DNA of 64,000 nucleotides from Streptomyces sp. DG2A-72 (GTDB taxonomy: Bacteria > Actinomycetota > Actinomycetes > Streptomycetales > Streptomycetaceae). The notes below the pieces were generated by a model. That model was not told where the DNA came from. It was given only the letters and a program-made list of their open reading frames with translations, and did no database searches. The DNA lies in the NCBI RefSeq assembly GCF_030499575.1, contig NZ_JASTLC010000001.1, positions 2,628,001 to 2,692,000 of the forward strand, written 5' to 3'. The number at the start of each line of letters is the position of its first letter. Position 1 is the first letter of the stretch. Positions 882-21,812 of this stretch are shown here, piece after piece. The position numbers and the translations under genes are program-made.

Positions 882-1679
882 TCACCACTCCAGCGCCCAC
901 GGCTTCCCCGTCCCCGCGAAGTGCCCGACGTTCACGCACTCCGTGGCCCCGAGCCGCATCCGGCGGACGAGGGGTTGGTGGACGTGGCCGAAGAGGGCAT
1001 AGCGCGGCCTGGTCCGGCGGATCGCCGCCAGCAGCGCCCGGCTGCCCCGCTCGAAACGTCGCGCCACGGTGTCGTAGACCAGTTCGGGGACCTCCGGAGG
1101 GATGTGCGTGCAGAGCACGTCCACCTCCCCCACCGCCTCGATCTTCGCCGCGTATTCCTCGTCGCTGATCTCGTACGGCGTGCGCATGGGCGTGCGGAGT
1201 CCGCCGCCGACGAAGCCGAAGACCCGGCCGCCGATCTCCACCCGCTCCCCGTCGAGGACGGTCGTGCCCGGCCCGGCGTACTCGGCCCACAAGGGCGGCA
1301 TGTCGACATTGCCGTACGTCGCATACGTCGGCGTCGGGAACGCGGCGAACATCTCGGCGTACTGCTTGCGCACCGCCTTCTCGATCGCGGCGGCGCGGTC
1401 CCCGCCGATGCCCGCCCACAGGCTCGCCCCGAACTGCCGTGCCTCCTCGAAGCGCCGGGCGGTGCGCAGCTCGACGATACGGTCGGCGTTCTCGACGCCG
1501 AACAGGTCGGGGAAGATGCCGCGCGAGTGGTCGGCGTAGTCGAGGAACAGCACCAGGTCGCCCAGGCAGATCAGGGCATCCGCAGCGTCACCGGCTCTGG
1601 CCAGGTCGCGGGCGTTACCGTGCACGTCACTGACCACATGAATGCGTGTCCTGCGGTTACCCGGTCGTGAGGGTGCCAT
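882..1679 (-). CDS. Calcineurin-like metallophosphoesterase
   Basis: A 265-residue protein with every metal-ligand block of the calcineurin-like fold: SDVHGN at 17-22, GDL at 40-42, GNVD at 123-126, His192 in THIPPE, and GHVH at 231-234. Such enzymes hydrolyse phosphomono- or diesters with a dinuclear metal centre; the substrate cannot be told from sequence. No signal peptide is present. I chose the ATG at 1679 because the first beta strand begins right after it and the open frame further upstream encodes no recognisable domain. It is transcribed away from the acyl-CoA ligase gene, and the two share a 288-base control region. Confidence 0.9.
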   Translation of the reverse strand: MAPSRPGNRRTRIHVVSDVHGNARDLARAGDAADALICLGDLVLFLDYADHSRGIFPDLFGVENADRIVELRTARRFEEARQFGASLWAGIGGDRAAAIEKAVRKQYAEMFAAFPTPTYATYGNVDMPPLWAEYAGPGTTVLDGERVEIGGRVFGFVGGGLRTPMRTPYEISDEEYAAKIEAVGEVDVLCTHIPPEVPELVYDTVARRFERGSRALLAAIRRTRPRYALFGHVHQPLVRRMRLGATECVNVGHFAGTGKPWALEW

Positions 1680-1900: not shown

Positions 1901-1967
1901 GAGCCTTGGACCGCACCGTCGCAGCACACAACGTCGTGGCGCCGGCGCCCTATGAGGAGCAGCAGTC

Positions 1968-3764
1968 TTGCGCGAGTTCAGCCTTCCGGCTCTGTACGAA
2001 GTCCCTGCGGACGGCAATCTCACCGACATCGTCCGTAGAAACGCCGCGCAGCATCCCGATGTCGCCGTGATCGCCCGCAAGGTGGGCGGTGCGTGGCAGG
2101 ACGTGACGGCCACCGCGTTCCTGGCGGAGGTGCACGCGGCCGCCAAGGGCCTGATCGCGTCCGGTGTGCTGCCGGGTGACCGGGTCGGCCTGATGTCCCG
2201 TACCCGCTACGAATGGACGCTGCTCGACTTCGCGATCTGGTGTGCGGGCGCGGTCACCGTGCCGGTGTACGAGACCAGCTCGCCGGAGCAGATGCAGTGG
2301 ATCCTCGGTGACTCGGGCGCCACGGCCTGCGTCGTGGAGATGGACAGCCACGCGGCAGCCGTCGAGTCGGTGCGCGACCGGCTGCCCGCCCTGAAGCACG
2401 TCTGGCAGATCGAGGCCGGCGGGGTCGAGGAGCTGGGCCGGCTCGGGCAGGACGTGTCCGACGAGACGGTCGAGGAGCGCAGTTCGCTGGCGAAGGCCGA
2501 CGACCCGGCGACCATCGTCTACACGTCCGGGACCACCGGCCGCCCCAAGGGCTGTGTGCTCACCCATCGCAGCTTCTTCGCGGAGTGCGGGAACATCGTG
2601 GAGCGCCTGCGTCCGCTGTTCCGCACCGGCGAGTGCTCGGTGCTGCTGTTCCTGCCGCTCGCGCATGTCTTCGGACGGCTCGTGCAGGTCGCGCCCATGA
2701 TGGCGCCGATCAAGCTGGGCAACGTTCCCGACATCAAGAACCTCACCGACGAGCTGGCCGCGTTCCGGCCGACGCTCATCCTGGGCGTGCCGCGCGTCTT
2801 CGAGAAGGTCTACAACAGCGCACGCGCCAAGGCCCAGGCGGACGGCAAGGGCAAGATCTTCGACAAGGCCGCGGACACCGCGATCGCGTACAGCAAGGCG
2901 CTGGACACCCCGTCGGGCCCGTCGATCGGCCTGAAGATCAAGCACAAGACCTTCGACAAGCTGGTCTACAGCAAGCTGCGGGCCGTGCTGGGCGGCAAGG
3001 GCGAGTACGCCATCTCCGGCGGCGCCCCGCTGGGCGAACGGCTCGGGCACTTCTTCCGCGGCATCGGCTTCACGGTCCTGGAGGGCTACGGCCTGACCGA
3101 GTCCTGCGCCGCGACCGCCTTCAACCCCTGGGACCGGCAGAAGATCGGCACGGTCGGGCAGCCGCTGCCGGGCTCCGTGGTGCGGATCGCGGACGACGGT
3201 GAGGTGCTGCTGCACGGGGAGCACCTGTTCAAGGAGTACTGGAACAACCCGGGCGCGACCGAGGAGGCGCTGGCCGACGGCTGGTTCCACACCGGGGACA
3301 TCGGCACCCTCGACGAGGACGGCTACCTCCGGATCACCGGCCGCAAGAAGGAGATCATCGTCACCGCGGGCGGCAAGAACGTCGCCCCGGCCGTGATCGA
3401 GGACCGGATCCGTGCGCATGCGCTGGTCGGGGAATGCATGGTGGTCGGTGACGCGCGGCCGTTCGTCGGCGCGCTGATCACCATCGACGAGGAGTTCCTG
3501 GGCCGCTGGGCGGCCGAGCACGGCAAGCCGGAGGGCTCCACCGCGGCGTCGCTGCGTCAGGACCCGGATCTGCTCGCGGAGATCCAGAGCGCTGTCGACG
3601 ACGGCAACGCCGCGGTGTCGAAGGCGGAATTGGTGCGGAAGTTCCGCATTCTGTCCTCCCAGTTCACCGAGGATTCGGGCCACCTGACGCCGTCCCTGAA
3701 GCTCAAGCGCAATGTGGTGGCGAAGGACTACGCGGACGAGATCGAGGCCATCTACCAGAAGTAG
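1968..3764 (+). CDS. AMP-forming long-chain fatty acid-CoA ligase (FadD-type)
   Basis: A 598-residue adenylate-forming enzyme that activates a fatty acid with ATP and loads it onto CoA. Visible motifs are the P-loop YTSGTTGRPKG near residue 185, GYGLTES near 374, WFHTGDIG near 438, GRKKEIIV near 457, and a C-terminal catalytic-lysine segment LKLKRNVV near 577. Length and motif spacing fit the long-chain FadD15-like group of actinobacteria rather than acetyl-CoA synthetases. The start is TTG at 1968, supported by GAGGAG about eight bases upstream. The gene is convergent with the GMC oxidoreductase, with only 16 bases between stops. Chain-length preference cannot be read from sequence. Confidence 0.93.
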   Translation: MREFSLPALYEVPADGNLTDIVRRNAAQHPDVAVIARKVGGAWQDVTATAFLAEVHAAAKGLIASGVLPGDRVGLMSRTRYEWTLLDFAIWCAGAVTVPVYETSSPEQMQWILGDSGATACVVEMDSHAAAVESVRDRLPALKHVWQIEAGGVEELGRLGQDVSDETVEERSSLAKADDPATIVYTSGTTGRPKGCVLTHRSFFAECGNIVERLRPLFRTGECSVLLFLPLAHVFGRLVQVAPMMAPIKLGNVPDIKNLTDELAAFRPTLILGVPRVFEKVYNSARAKAQADGKGKIFDKAADTAIAYSKALDTPSGPSIGLKIKHKTFDKLVYSKLRAVLGGKGEYAISGGAPLGERLGHFFRGIGFTVLEGYGLTESCAATAFNPWDRQKIGTVGQPLPGSVVRIADDGEVLLHGEHLFKEYWNNPGATEEALADGWFHTGDIGTLDEDGYLRITGRKKEIIVTAGGKNVAPAVIEDRIRAHALVGECMVVGDARPFVGALITIDEEFLGRWAAEHGKPEGSTAASLRQDPDLLAEIQSAVDDGNAAVSKAELVRKFRILSSQFTEDSGHLTPSLKLKRNVVAKDYADEIEAIYQK

Positions 3765-19049: not shown

Positions 19050-20411
19050 TCAGACAGCCGGGACGCAGCGCCCGTCCTCGGTGCGGTAGCGCCACTTCGC
19101 ACCGTCCTGGACGAGTTCCTTCACGGCCTTCACAAAACGTTCGACATGCTCGTCCGGCGTGCCCGCGCCGAAGCTCACGCGGATGGCGTTGAGGGACTTC
19201 TCGCCGGGCGCGGCCTCGGGAGCGCCGCACTCGCCCTGGGTCTGCGGATCGCTGCCGAGCAGGGTGCGGACCAGCGGGTGGGCGCAGAACAGGCCGTCGC
19301 GGACGCCGATGCCGTACTCGGCGGAGAGGGCGGCGGCGAAGTGCGAGCTGTTCCAGCCGTCGACGACGAAGGAGATGACGCCGACGCGGGGGGCGTCGTC
19401 GCCGAAGAGGGAGAGGACGCGCACTTCCGGGACCTCGGCGAGGCCTTCCCTGACCTGCGCGATCAGGTGCTGCTCACGGGCGACCAGGGTGTCGAAGCCC
19501 GCCTCCGTCAGGGCCTTGCAGGCGGAGGCGATGGAGTAGGCGCCGATGACGTTCGGGGAACCCGCCTCATGCCGGGCGGCCGTGTCGTGCCACTCCACGT
19601 CCACTCCCCCGTCCGTGCGCCGGGCGACCTTCCGGCTGGCGCCGCCGCCCGCGAGATACGGCTCGGCCGCACGCAGCCAGTCGGCACGGCCGGCCAGGAC
19701 GCCGGAGCCGAAGGGGGCGTACAGCTTGTGTCCGGAGAACGCGACCCAGTCGACGTCGAGGTCCTGCACGGAGACCGGGTGGTGCGGGGCCAGCTGGGCG
19801 GCGTCCAGGACGATCCGGGCGCCGTGCGCGTGCGCGGCTGCGGCCAGCTCTCGTACGGGCCACAGCTCGCCGGTGACGTTCGAGGCGCCGGTGACACAGA
19901 CCAGGGCCGGGCCGTGCTGGTCACGGTCGGCGAGGGCGCGCTCCAGGGTCTCGACGGCCTGGCGCGGGGTGCGGGGCGCGTTGAGGTAGGTGACGTGGGC
20001 GTCCTGCCAGGGCAGCAGGGAGGCGTGGTGCTCGGTCTCGAAGACGAAGACCTGGCAGTCGGCGGGGAGCGCGGCGGCGAGCAGGTTGAGGGAGTCGGTG
20101 GTGGAGCGGGTGAAGACCAGCTGGTCGTCGGCGCGGCAGTCGAGGAACTCGGCAACCGTGGCGCGGGCGTTCTCGAAGAGGTCGGTCGACAGCTGGGAGA
20201 GGTAGCCGGCGCCGCGGTGCACGCTGCCGTAGTACGGCGCGTACGCCGCCACGTCGTCCCAGACGCGCTGGAGGGCGGGGGCGCTGGCCGCGTAGTCGAG
20301 CGCGGCGTAGGTGACCTCGCCGCCGGTGACGAGGGGGACGGTGACATCCCGGCCGAGAACGGGCAGCGGGGCGCAAACGGACTGGGCGGCGGCAGCGGTG
20401 GAGACGGACAT
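19050..20411 (-). CDS. Class V aminotransferase / cysteine-desulfurase-like PLP enzyme under SAM-riboswitch control
   Basis: A 453-residue fold-type I PLP enzyme. LDYAASAPALQRVWD opens the fold; ETEHHASLLPWQ, then VLDAAQLAPHHPV and SGHKLYAPFG with the PLP-binding Lys near 225 follow. These are the family blocks of cysteine desulfurases and related lyases. A flexible loop with the catalytic Cys typical of SufS/NifS is not obvious; NSSHFAAAL and LFCAHPLVR replace it. The gene sits about 140 bases downstream of a SAM-IV-type aptamer on the same strand, so its enzyme probably works in methionine, cysteine or SAM sulfur metabolism. The reaction is not known. The start ATG at 20411 fits the distance to the aptamer. 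Confidence 0.88.
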   Translation of the reverse strand: MSVSTAAAAQSVCAPLPVLGRDVTVPLVTGGEVTYAALDYAASAPALQRVWDDVAAYAPYYGSVHRGAGYLSQLSTDLFENARATVAEFLDCRADDQLVFTRSTTDSLNLLAAALPADCQVFVFETEHHASLLPWQDAHVTYLNAPRTPRQAVETLERALADRDQHGPALVCVTGASNVTGELWPVRELAAAAHAHGARIVLDAAQLAPHHPVSVQDLDVDWVAFSGHKLYAPFGSGVLAGRADWLRAAEPYLAGGGASRKVARRTDGGVDVEWHDTAARHEAGSPNVIGAYSIASACKALTEAGFDTLVAREQHLIAQVREGLAEVPEVRVLSLFGDDAPRVGVISFVVDGWNSSHFAAALSAEYGIGVRDGLFCAHPLVRTLLGSDPQTQGECGAPEAAPGEKSLNAIRVSFGAGTPDEHVERFVKAVKELVQDGAKWRYRTEDGRCVPAV

Positions 20412-20521
20412 GGGTGAACTCCCGTGAGAGGCGCACGCATGCGGCGTACGAGAAAGAGAAAAGGGTGTGCGGAGGCGGGGCTCTGCGGCCCTATCGCATT
20501 CGCTTGCTCACGGAAGACTCC

Positions 20522-20550
20522 CTCGAACGACCAGGACCCCTGGTTTCGAG
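20522..20550 (-). promoter_or_regulatory. Stem-loop immediately downstream of the SAM aptamer (possible expression platform)
   Basis: On the minus strand CTCGAA and TTCGAG (20550-20522) enclose an inner stem CCAGG/CCTGG with a three-base loop. It begins right after the aptamer 3-prime end and lies about 110 bases before the aminotransferase start. It could act as terminator or as part of a switch; no alternative pairing with the aptamer was worked out. Confidence 0.4.
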
Positions 20551-20551
20551 A

Positions 20552-20670
20552 GGGGCCCGCGCTTGCCGCAGACCTCGCTGCCTACGGCCTGGTCTTCACC
20601 CGGGGCACCCCGCCACGGACGGAGGGTTGCCGGACAGTCGGCCGGGGCCTCATGACTGTCACTCATGACC
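20552..20670 (-). ncRNA. SAM-IV-type S-adenosylmethionine riboswitch aptamer
   Basis: Read on the minus strand from 20670: GGTCATGAGTG, then GCCCCGGC, CCGGCAACCCTCC, GGTGCCCCGGGTGA, GACCAGG and finally GCGGCAAGCGCGGG. These blocks, in this order and with this spacing over about 119 bases, match the actinobacterial SAM-IV aptamer I know from the structurally solved mycobacterial example. Helix P1 can form between GGTC at the 5-prime end and GACC in the body, and the terminal GCAAGCGCGGG supplies the pseudoknot strand. It precedes the class V aminotransferase. Ligand binding normally lowers expression. The whole 20412-20747 gene-free stretch therefore holds, in transcription order, the trpD terminator, this aptamer, a stem-loop and a leader. 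Confidence 0.9.
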
Positions 20671-20678
20671 TGGTCAGG

Positions 20679-20708
20679 AAAGTACGTCAAATGATCGACG
20701 TCCCGCAA
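20679..20708 (-). promoter_or_regulatory. Candidate promoter of the SAM-riboswitch transcript
   Basis: On the minus strand TTGCGG (20708-20703) and TACTTT (20684-20679) are 18 bases apart. Transcription would start near 20671, at the first base of the aptamer. The -35 box overlaps an arm of the trpD terminator, so the space is very tight; read-through from trpD is the alternative. Confidence 0.3.
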
Positions 20709-20732
20709 CCCGTGTCCGGATTGCGGGACGTC
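20697..20732 (-). terminator. trpD terminator hairpin
   Basis: Perfect 12-bp arms GACGTCCCGCAA (20697-20708) and TTGCGGGACGTC (20721-20732) flank a 12-base loop. It begins 16 bases after the trpD stop. It separates trpD from the riboswitch transcript on the same strand. Confidence 0.75.
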
Positions 20733-20747
20733 TCCTCGCGTTTCGCG

Positions 20748-21812
20748 TTACTTGTTGCTCGCGGCCACCCAGCGCTCCAGCGTCAGCTTCGCGGCCCCGG
20801 AGTCGATCGACTCCGCCGCCTTCTCCATCCCGGCACGGATCTGCTCGGCGAGCGAGGCACCGGTCGGCTCCAGCGCCACCAGGGCCGCCGCCGAGTTCAG
20901 CAGTACGGCCTCCCGCACCGGGCCCGTCTCGCCGTCCAGCAGGCGCCGGGCGACCTCGGCGTTGAAGGACGCGTTGGCGCCGCGGAGGGCCTGAACCGGC
21001 ACCAGTTCCAGGCCGACGTCCCGCGGGTCGAAGGACTCCTCGGTGACCTTGCCGTCGCGGACGATCCACACCCGGGAGGTGGCCGTGGTGGTCAGCTCGT
21101 CCAGGCCGTCGTCACCGCGGAACACCAGGGACGAGTTGCCGCGCTCGGCGAAGACGCCGGCCACGATCGGCGCCATGCGGAGGTCCGCGACCCCGACGGC
21201 TTGCGCCCTCACCTTTGCCGGGTTGGTCAGCGGGCCGAGGAAGTTGAACGTCGTCCGGATGCCCAACTGGCCGCGCGCCGCCGCCACATGACGCAGCGCC
21301 GGATGGAACTTCACCGCGAAGCAGAAGGTGATCCCGGCCTCCTCTGCGACCTCGGCGACCCGCTGCGGCGTCAGCTCCAGATTGACGCCCAGCTTCTCCA
21401 GGACGTCCGAGGCCCCGGACGCCGACGACGCGGCCCGGTTGCCGTGCTTGACGACCTTCGCGCCGGTGCCGGCGACGACGATCGAGGACATGGTGGAGAT
21501 GTTCACGGTCTTCGCGCCGTCACCGCCCGTGCCGACGATGTCGACCGTGTGCCCCGGCACCTCGATCACATTCGCGTGCTCGTACATCGTCCGGACGAGC
21601 CCGGCGATCTCCTCCACGGTCTCGCCCTTGGCGCGCAGCGCCACCGCGAACCCGGCGATCTGCGCGTCTGTCGCCTCGCCGCGCATGATCCGGTCCATCG
21701 CCCAGGCCGTGTCGTCGGCGCTCTGGTCACGGCCCTCCAGCAGACCGTTCAGCACCTCGGGCCAGGAACGGCCCGCCGCGATGTCGCCTCCAGCGGGGGT
21801 CACAGCGCTCAT
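20748..21812 (-). CDS. trpD: Anthranilate phosphoribosyltransferase
   Basis: A 354-residue enzyme that joins anthranilate to PRPP in the second step of tryptophan synthesis. It has the family motifs [15 protein letters not shown] near 93 (PRPP pyrophosphate binding), [21 protein letters not shown] near 120, and [11 protein letters not shown] near 190. Length is normal. The start ATG at 21812 is followed by a ten-residue variable stretch before the first helix. It stands alone rather than in a trp operon, with the perfect hairpin 21882-21918 upstream and its own terminator downstream. No tryptophan-rich leader peptide is visible in the 70 bases before the start. Confidence 0.97.

Follow-up and report, generated by a model that had tools for sequence, protein, structure and literature searches.

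In Streptomyces sp. DG2A-72, a SAM-IV riboswitch lies ahead of a gene for a probable cysteine desulfurase, and the first start after the riboswitch platform is that of a six-codon mini-ORF, which recurs in nearly all Streptomyces leaders and is probably translated under riboswitch control. The window, i.e., the whole stretch of DNA that was analysed, comprises 64,000 nucleotides (contig NZ_JASTLC010000001.1, positions 2,628,001 to 2,692,000), and its features are collected in Table 1. We further propose, with about an even chance of being right, that the riboswitch is of the SAM-OFF type and controls a cysteine desulfurase whose sulfur enters homocysteine and methionine.

Table 1. Features of the riboswitch-enzyme locus (window positions) and of the metM-metO-like pair elsewhere in the genome
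Feature	Position	Strand	Evidence or remark
SAM-IV aptamer	20554..20670	(-)	RF00634 match, 110.7 bits vs cut-off 38
Helix A, 5' arm (end of aptamer tail)	20552..20558	(-)	pairs with 20534-20540; 97/97 leaders, pair 4 covaries
Helix B, 5' arm, alternative to helix A	20545..20553	(-)	predicted fold; compatible with most leaders
Helix A, 3' arm	20534..20540	(-)	pairs with 20552-20558
Helix B, 3' arm, contains mini-ORF Shine-Dalgarno GAGGGAG (20518-20524)	20518..20527	(-)	predicted fold
Mini-ORF GTG AGC AAG CGA ATG CGA TAG (M-S-K-R-M-R-stop)	20491..20511	(-)	kept in 106/109 Streptomyces leaders
Hairpin GGGC-loop-GCCC, from third base of mini-ORF stop codon	20478..20491	(-)	in 87/106 leaders
Pyrimidine tract in C-rich, G-poor spacer	20450..20465	(-)	C above G in 100/101 spacers
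Enzyme-gene Shine-Dalgarno region, pairable with mini-ORF start region 20507-20516	20419..20428	(-)	type in 50/101 leaders only
SufS-like class V PLP enzyme, probable cysteine desulfurase, 453 aa	19050..20411	(-)	Aminotran_5 and SufS-like matches, fold, conserved residues
Cys376 codon, aligned with SufS catalytic cysteine	19284..19286	(-)	alignment; coordinate by arithmetic
metM-metO-like pair behind the single SAM-I	L180:3838-5495 = G000 C1:4535837-4537494	(-)	

The first-pass annotation had placed a SAM-IV aptamer on the minus strand at 20552-20670 and had called for a search with the Rfam covariance model. In that search, RF00634 matched the window over its full length (model positions 1-116 of 116, E 1.5e-19, not truncated) at 110.7 bits, well over the gathering score of 38. 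The riboswitch was thus placed correctly, and its interval differs by 2 bases from the match at 20670-20554, which, judged by the covariance model, is almost certainly a genuine SAM-IV aptamer. No other Rfam family reached its cut-off in the whole 64-kb window, and the Rfam scan of the 10.6 Mb genome gave this single SAM-IV. Among 120 homologues listed, those with a name came from Streptomyces. At least one SAM-IV was present in 147 of 150 sampled Streptomyces genomes, and across the class SAM-IV was found in 188 of 296 genomes. The pairing of SAM-IV with the same class V PLP gene has already been published for S. clavuligerus and S. lividans, according to the accessible parts of PMC8269248 and PMC8079986. 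The pair of SAM-IV and class V enzyme is already known; what this analysis adds is the mini-ORF, the SufS-like subfamily behind SAM-IV and the metM-metO context.

As annotated at first pass, the gene after the riboswitch encodes a class V PLP enzyme, with an Aminotran_5 match of 255.9 bits. Against the SufS model TIGR01979 it scored 256.3 bits, about half of what is needed to reach the curated cut-off of 475.1, while two other proteins of the same genome exceeded this cut-off (525.9 and 546.6 bits); two further proteins are NifS/IscS-like. The annotation had seen no obvious desulfurase Cys loop in the enzyme. This was refuted by an alignment to PDB sequences, in which GLFCAHPL of the enzyme is matched with GHHCAMPL in a chain of SufS. 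At the SufS positions the enzyme has Cys376 and the PLP lysine K229, and both were invariant in 30 of 30 proteins (29 orthologues linked to SAM-IV plus the protein of the window), so a missing Cys loop is ruled out. The broader reading, that SAM-IV before a class V PLP enzyme indicates sulfur amino acid metabolism, stood. Over the 30 family members there were 70 invariant positions, one of them the start Met that was fixed by the script; they include H129, D203, Q206, H228, K229, C376 and R411, which we take to be the SufS catalytic residues. F375, H378, H281 and A232 were likewise invariant in the family, and differ in both SufS paralogues. The AlphaFold model of the enzyme has a mean pLDDT of 91.8, and the best 50 PDB structure matches listed were SufS, CsdB/selenocysteine lyase, Nfs2 and other cysteine desulfurases. 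Since the catalytic-type residues are invariant and the structure matches are desulfurases and selenocysteine lyases, cysteine desulfuration is the default predicted reaction, and we consider it likely from sequence and predicted fold that the enzyme is a cysteine desulfurase. Because it falls below the TIGR01979 cut-off, its substrate may differ, and it may act as a C-S lyase on another compound.

The linkage of the enzyme to the riboswitch was followed in a set of 80 genomes that combined 56 chosen for having SAM-IV with 24 lacking it. In 29 of the 80 there was an enzyme orthologue, 48-60% identical (E up to 1.6e-72), and SAM-IV was directly upstream in all 29 (20/20 and 9/9 in two sets). 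In the 24 genomes without SAM-IV, an absence call in which scan filters can lose weak matches, there were no such orthologues, and the nearest proteins were 40, 38, 37 and 37% identical; at the locus of the 40% identical protein (L210), the sole such locus examined, the riboswitch was not found. Three genera (g18, g34 and g35) each had one genome with both SAM-IV and enzyme and one with neither. All 49 Streptomyces loci examined, i.e., the 47 best-scoring SAM-IV places together with L111 and L117, had the enzyme frame after the riboswitch. In other genera this frame followed at least 17 of 40 picked SAM-IV loci, which is a lower bound because the crude gene caller overlooked enzyme genes, e.g., in G352. 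The enzyme thus belongs to a SufS-like subfamily that is found only behind SAM-IV within the genomes searched. The genes downstream of ten scanned loci had no common theme, and an operon partner as functional clue was discarded.

Some loci showed unusual arrangements. In L201 (G193), two SAM-IV riboswitches stand back to back, one at 1956-2073 (-) before the desulfurase-like gene and one at 2175-2291 (+) before a divergent cluster. In L190 (G179), with elements at 1053-1142 (-) and 1307-1421 (+), a SAM-I is oriented divergently from the SAM-IV that precedes the desulfurase-like gene, and a 282-codon open frame follows the SAM-I. In C. glutamicum, SAM-IV precedes cg1478, as stated in the accessible part of PMC3890552.

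The mini-ORF was traced in 109 Streptomyces leaders, namely the 49 loci above and 60 that were picked with a lean to low scores. A Shine-Dalgarno sequence 6-9 nt ahead of the pattern [G/A/T]TG-NNN-NNN-CGA-ATG-NNN-TAG was present in 101 of 104 parsed leaders, and five more, in which the aptamer tail is shortened, also have the mini-ORF, which brings the total to 106 of 109. In these leaders a kept Shine-Dalgarno and start right after the platform, a short frame and a separate downstream gene occur together, as in a riboswitch-controlled uORF. In 126 of 150 genomes there was exactly one occurrence of a slightly stricter form of the pattern, and the reversed control occurred in none; the first 28 places listed, checked by eye against the SAM-IV positions, were all just 3' of SAM-IV. 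In the three leaders that lack the mini-ORF (L245, L259 and L291), the enzyme's own frame begins at the mini-ORF spot. Other genera had the mini-ORF in 0 of 29 enzyme loci, and in 28 of these the enzyme frame was open from a Shine-Dalgarno-led start 18-71 nt past the aptamer. The simplest history that these sequences suggest would be that a riboswitch-controlled start of the enzyme turned into a separate mini-ORF in Streptomyces. Among the literature matches listed (the best 20 of 74 in one case), a set without the SAM-IV discovery and MetM papers, no mini-ORF behind SAM-IV was found, and the accessible part of a published S. lividans list of eight leader peptides does not contain it.

The conserved block after the platform could also be an untranslated RNA element, such as a terminator, a processing site or a binding site, that mimics a mini-ORF. 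Such an element would account for the invariance of GCGAATGCG and of the GGC after the stop (G 105, G 101 and C 99 of 106) at the level of bases, and for the CGA, which has no synonym in 106 leaders. However, the Shine-Dalgarno lies at 6-9 nt in each of the 101 parsed leaders, and the variation is that of a reading frame: the first base of the start is only G, A or T (98, 7 and 1 of 106), the third base of codon 6 is free (A 56, C 25, T 19, G 6), and the CGA, the ATG and the in-frame TAG are invariant in 106 of 106. Moreover, the enzyme starts at the same spot in three Streptomyces leaders and in the 28 loci of other genera. We thus regard an untranslated element as rather improbable and consider that the mini-ORF is probably both translated and controlled by the riboswitch. 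It would then offer a clean case for riboswitches acting through a short uORF, with three Streptomyces leaders and the other genera as natural counter-examples.

The platform between aptamer and mini-ORF can form two alternative helices. Helix A pairs the aptamer tail GG[AG][CT]CCC with GGG[GA]TCC, and in all 97 leaders (of 104) whose 3' arm could be recognised, all seven pairs were present. Because consensus was used to pick the arms, only pair 4 could vary freely and serve as a test; it was C-G in 68, U.G in 16, U-A in 13 and C-A in none, which was equalled by 0 of 2000 shuffles. Helix B, with the best partner chosen, had 5 or 6 of 6 positions paired in 97 of 101 leaders. In the SAM-bound state, the SAM-IV pseudoknot uses the aptamer tail, and the CCGUG / CGCGG complementarity agrees with a tail held in that pseudoknot. 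Helix A is backed by covariation, and a SAM-dependent exchange with helix B is proposed.

The GGGC..GCCC hairpin at the mini-ORF stop codon was present in 87 of 106 leaders, compared with 17% in shuffles, and some of the other leaders pair differently there by eye. The spacer from mini-ORF to enzyme gene measured 53-298 nt (median 109), with C exceeding G in 100 of 101 leaders. In a consensus scan, no canonical intrinsic terminator (G+C-rich hairpin and T run) was found on the minus strand at 20350-20850, and a transcriptional riboswitch acting through such a terminator was rejected as there is no such site in the leader. About half of the leaders (50 of 101) had the right type of pairing between the mini-ORF start and the Shine-Dalgarno of the enzyme gene. 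In 47 scored leaders it showed C-G 32, U.G 6, U-A 8, G-G 1 and C-A 0, but this long-range helix barely exceeded species-swapped pairing (8.09 vs 7.78 pairs, best swap 7.99).

From these elements the following mechanism can be proposed. When SAM is bound, the tail would be held in the aptamer fold, leaving helix B free to mask the Shine-Dalgarno; when SAM is low, the tail would pair in helix A, the Shine-Dalgarno would be open and the mini-ORF could be initiated. In other actinobacteria the freed start after the platform would be that of the enzyme gene itself, and in Streptomyces it would be that of the six-codon mini-ORF, which ends with its TAG at the foot of the hairpin. Translation of the mini-ORF would then allow the enzyme gene, which lies 53-298 nt downstream, to be expressed: it could keep Rho off the C-rich tract, it could open the hairpin or, in roughly half of the species, it could make the enzyme Shine-Dalgarno accessible. 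Since there is a mini-ORF and a C-rich spacer and no T-run terminator, Rho-dependent termination when the mini-ORF is silent would be the most economical coupling to the shut-off of the enzyme; pairing of the mini-ORF start with the enzyme Shine-Dalgarno may add to the control in about half of the species. In RNA-seq of S. clavuligerus, the leader/gene ratio at this locus is one of the most extreme in a set of 150 premature units (PMC8269248).

Several observations concern the route in which the sulfur might be used. In other genera, SAM-IV was also found before metY (L130, 851 bits with the sulfhydrylase model) and metX (L128, 563 bits). The search for the canonical homocysteine route in DG2A-72 was confined to MetX and MetY. 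MetX gave no match above 23.5 bits. The genome has three strong Cys/Met PLP enzymes, all below the cut-off of the MetY model; one passed as cystathionine gamma-synthase, one as cystathionine gamma-lyase, and a methionine gamma-lyase-like one was below its cut-off. The only SAM-I of this genome stands before a 427-aa threonine-synthase-like gene and a gene for a 91-aa protein ending in Gly-Gly. This matches the arrangement of metM-metO in S. albulus, for which PMC12172450 cites Hasebe et al., who reportedly described a MetM-MetO homocysteine route of Streptomyces. MetM-like genes were present in 53 of 80 genomes. Of 30 MetM loci fetched, SAM-I was present in 29 of 29 tested and MetO was close by in 24 of 30 (tblastn). 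Among the genomes with the enzyme, 20 of 29 had MetM (10 of those also MetX) and 9 of 29 had MetX without MetM; among those without the enzyme, 33 of 51 had MetM and 32 of 51 had MetX. Therefore, the enzyme is not specific to MetM, and an exclusive tie between the two was rejected. What the carriers of the enzyme have in common is SAM-IV together with a homocysteine route of either kind.

The supply of desulfurase sulfur for homocysteine would fit the MetM and the MetX/MetY routes alike. The enzyme would transfer cysteine sulfur to a persulfide on Cys376, from which it would pass in Streptomyces to the thiocarboxylate of MetO used by MetM, and in genomes with MetY to sulfide or persulfide for MetY. 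Streptomyces spend much SAM on natural products, and the desulfurase subfamily, seen here only behind SAM-IV, offers the MetM-MetO route a concrete candidate sulfur source. In Vibrionales, a csd gene is under MetJ, an independent parallel according to the accessible part of PMC4239095.

Extra copies of SAM-IV were present in 18 Streptomyces genomes, and the clusters behind them, annotated from representatives, were ABC transporter parts and NtaA/DmoA-type FMN monooxygenases. At 17 of 32 extra-copy Streptomyces places (L070-L078, with two copies in L075, L079, L081-L085 and L094), a longer leader peptide came after SAM-IV; it contains the motif R-x-H-[IV]-D-L and in many cases ends with Ser-Cys-Leu-Cys, and we take it to be of the cysteine-sensing type. 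These extra copies may thus be stacked on a cysteine-sensing leader peptide before genes for the uptake of sulfur compounds.

That the enzyme is the sulfur donor for homocysteine has, in our estimate, as much for it as against it, and two other roles have to be weighed. The enzyme could be a C-S lyase or another SufS-fold PLP enzyme for a different sulfur or selenium amino acid, e.g., one from SAM-IV-controlled uptake, and no donor for homocysteine. Its score below the SufS cut-off would agree with this, as would F375 and H378 on either side of the cysteine, positions held by H and R in the two SufS paralogues, and the extra SAM-IV before transporters and monooxygenases in some Streptomyces. 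Nevertheless, the residues that serve catalysis in SufS-type cysteine desulfuration are all invariant, the nearest structures among the best 50 listed are desulfurases and selenocysteine lyases, and the enzyme of DG2A-72 is independent of the uptake clusters because the genome has a single SAM-IV, so that we consider this role unlikely. The enzyme could instead deliver cysteine sulfur more generally, to Fe-S clusters, thiamine or thio-tRNA, with SAM control merely following the availability of cysteine. Its SufS-like sequence and fold are in line with this, and the S. lividans entry seen in a table of PMC8079986 reads cysteine desulfurase, thiamine metabolism. The two SufS-family and two NifS/IscS-like proteins of the genome cut both ways: they could supply the sulfur for homocysteine in place of the enzyme, and they also mean that general desulfurases are already at hand. 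In addition, a subfamily found only behind SAM-IV (29/29) fits methionine supply better, and we regard the general role as quite improbable.

Returning to the enzyme as sulfur donor, a more far-reaching proposal can be made tentatively, and we would sooner expect it to fail in some part than to hold as a whole. Streptomyces would have rewired a SAM riboswitch to a six-codon mini-ORF (x-x-x-Arg-Met-Arg-stop) instead of the enzyme gene, and a ribosome that terminates at CGA-AUG-CGN-UAG by the hairpin would be the actual switch for a SAM-gated desulfurase that charges MetO for homocysteine. Two classes of SAM riboswitch, SAM-I for metM-metO and SAM-IV for the donor, would then govern both halves of a non-canonical methionine route.

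Compared with known systems, the aptamer is like SAM-IV (RF00634) in its full-length match and its published place before this gene in S. lividans and S. clavuligerus, as far as the accessible text of these reports goes, and it differs in that the first start after the platform in Streptomyces is the six-codon mini-ORF. The enzyme shares the fold, the PLP lysine, the catalytic cysteine and other active-site residues with SufS-type (group II) cysteine desulfurases; it differs by reaching half of the SufS-model score, by its own signature RDGxFCAH and YAP, and by the link to SAM-IV. Relative to the MetM-MetO route, the threonine-synthase-like and 91-aa carrier-like genes behind SAM-I are alike, while the enzyme would act upstream as a putative sulfur donor. 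The action of riboswitches through a short uORF has been described for M. tuberculosis, according to the accessible parts of PMC11260477 and PMC12810186. In the B12-ppe2 leader, uORF translation is required, mainly via termination-reinitiation (PMC11260477), and the Mbox leader combines a translational platform with a uORF and with termination by Rho, the main termination site being before the uORF per the authors (PMC12810186). The predicted DG2A-72 switch resembles these leaders, as there described, in a translational platform acting on a short upstream ORF, and the Mbox leader also in the proposed involvement of Rho. However, the ligands and genes are others and the uORFs are longer there, whereas here the frame has six codons with an invariant CGA-ATG and a TAG at the hairpin.
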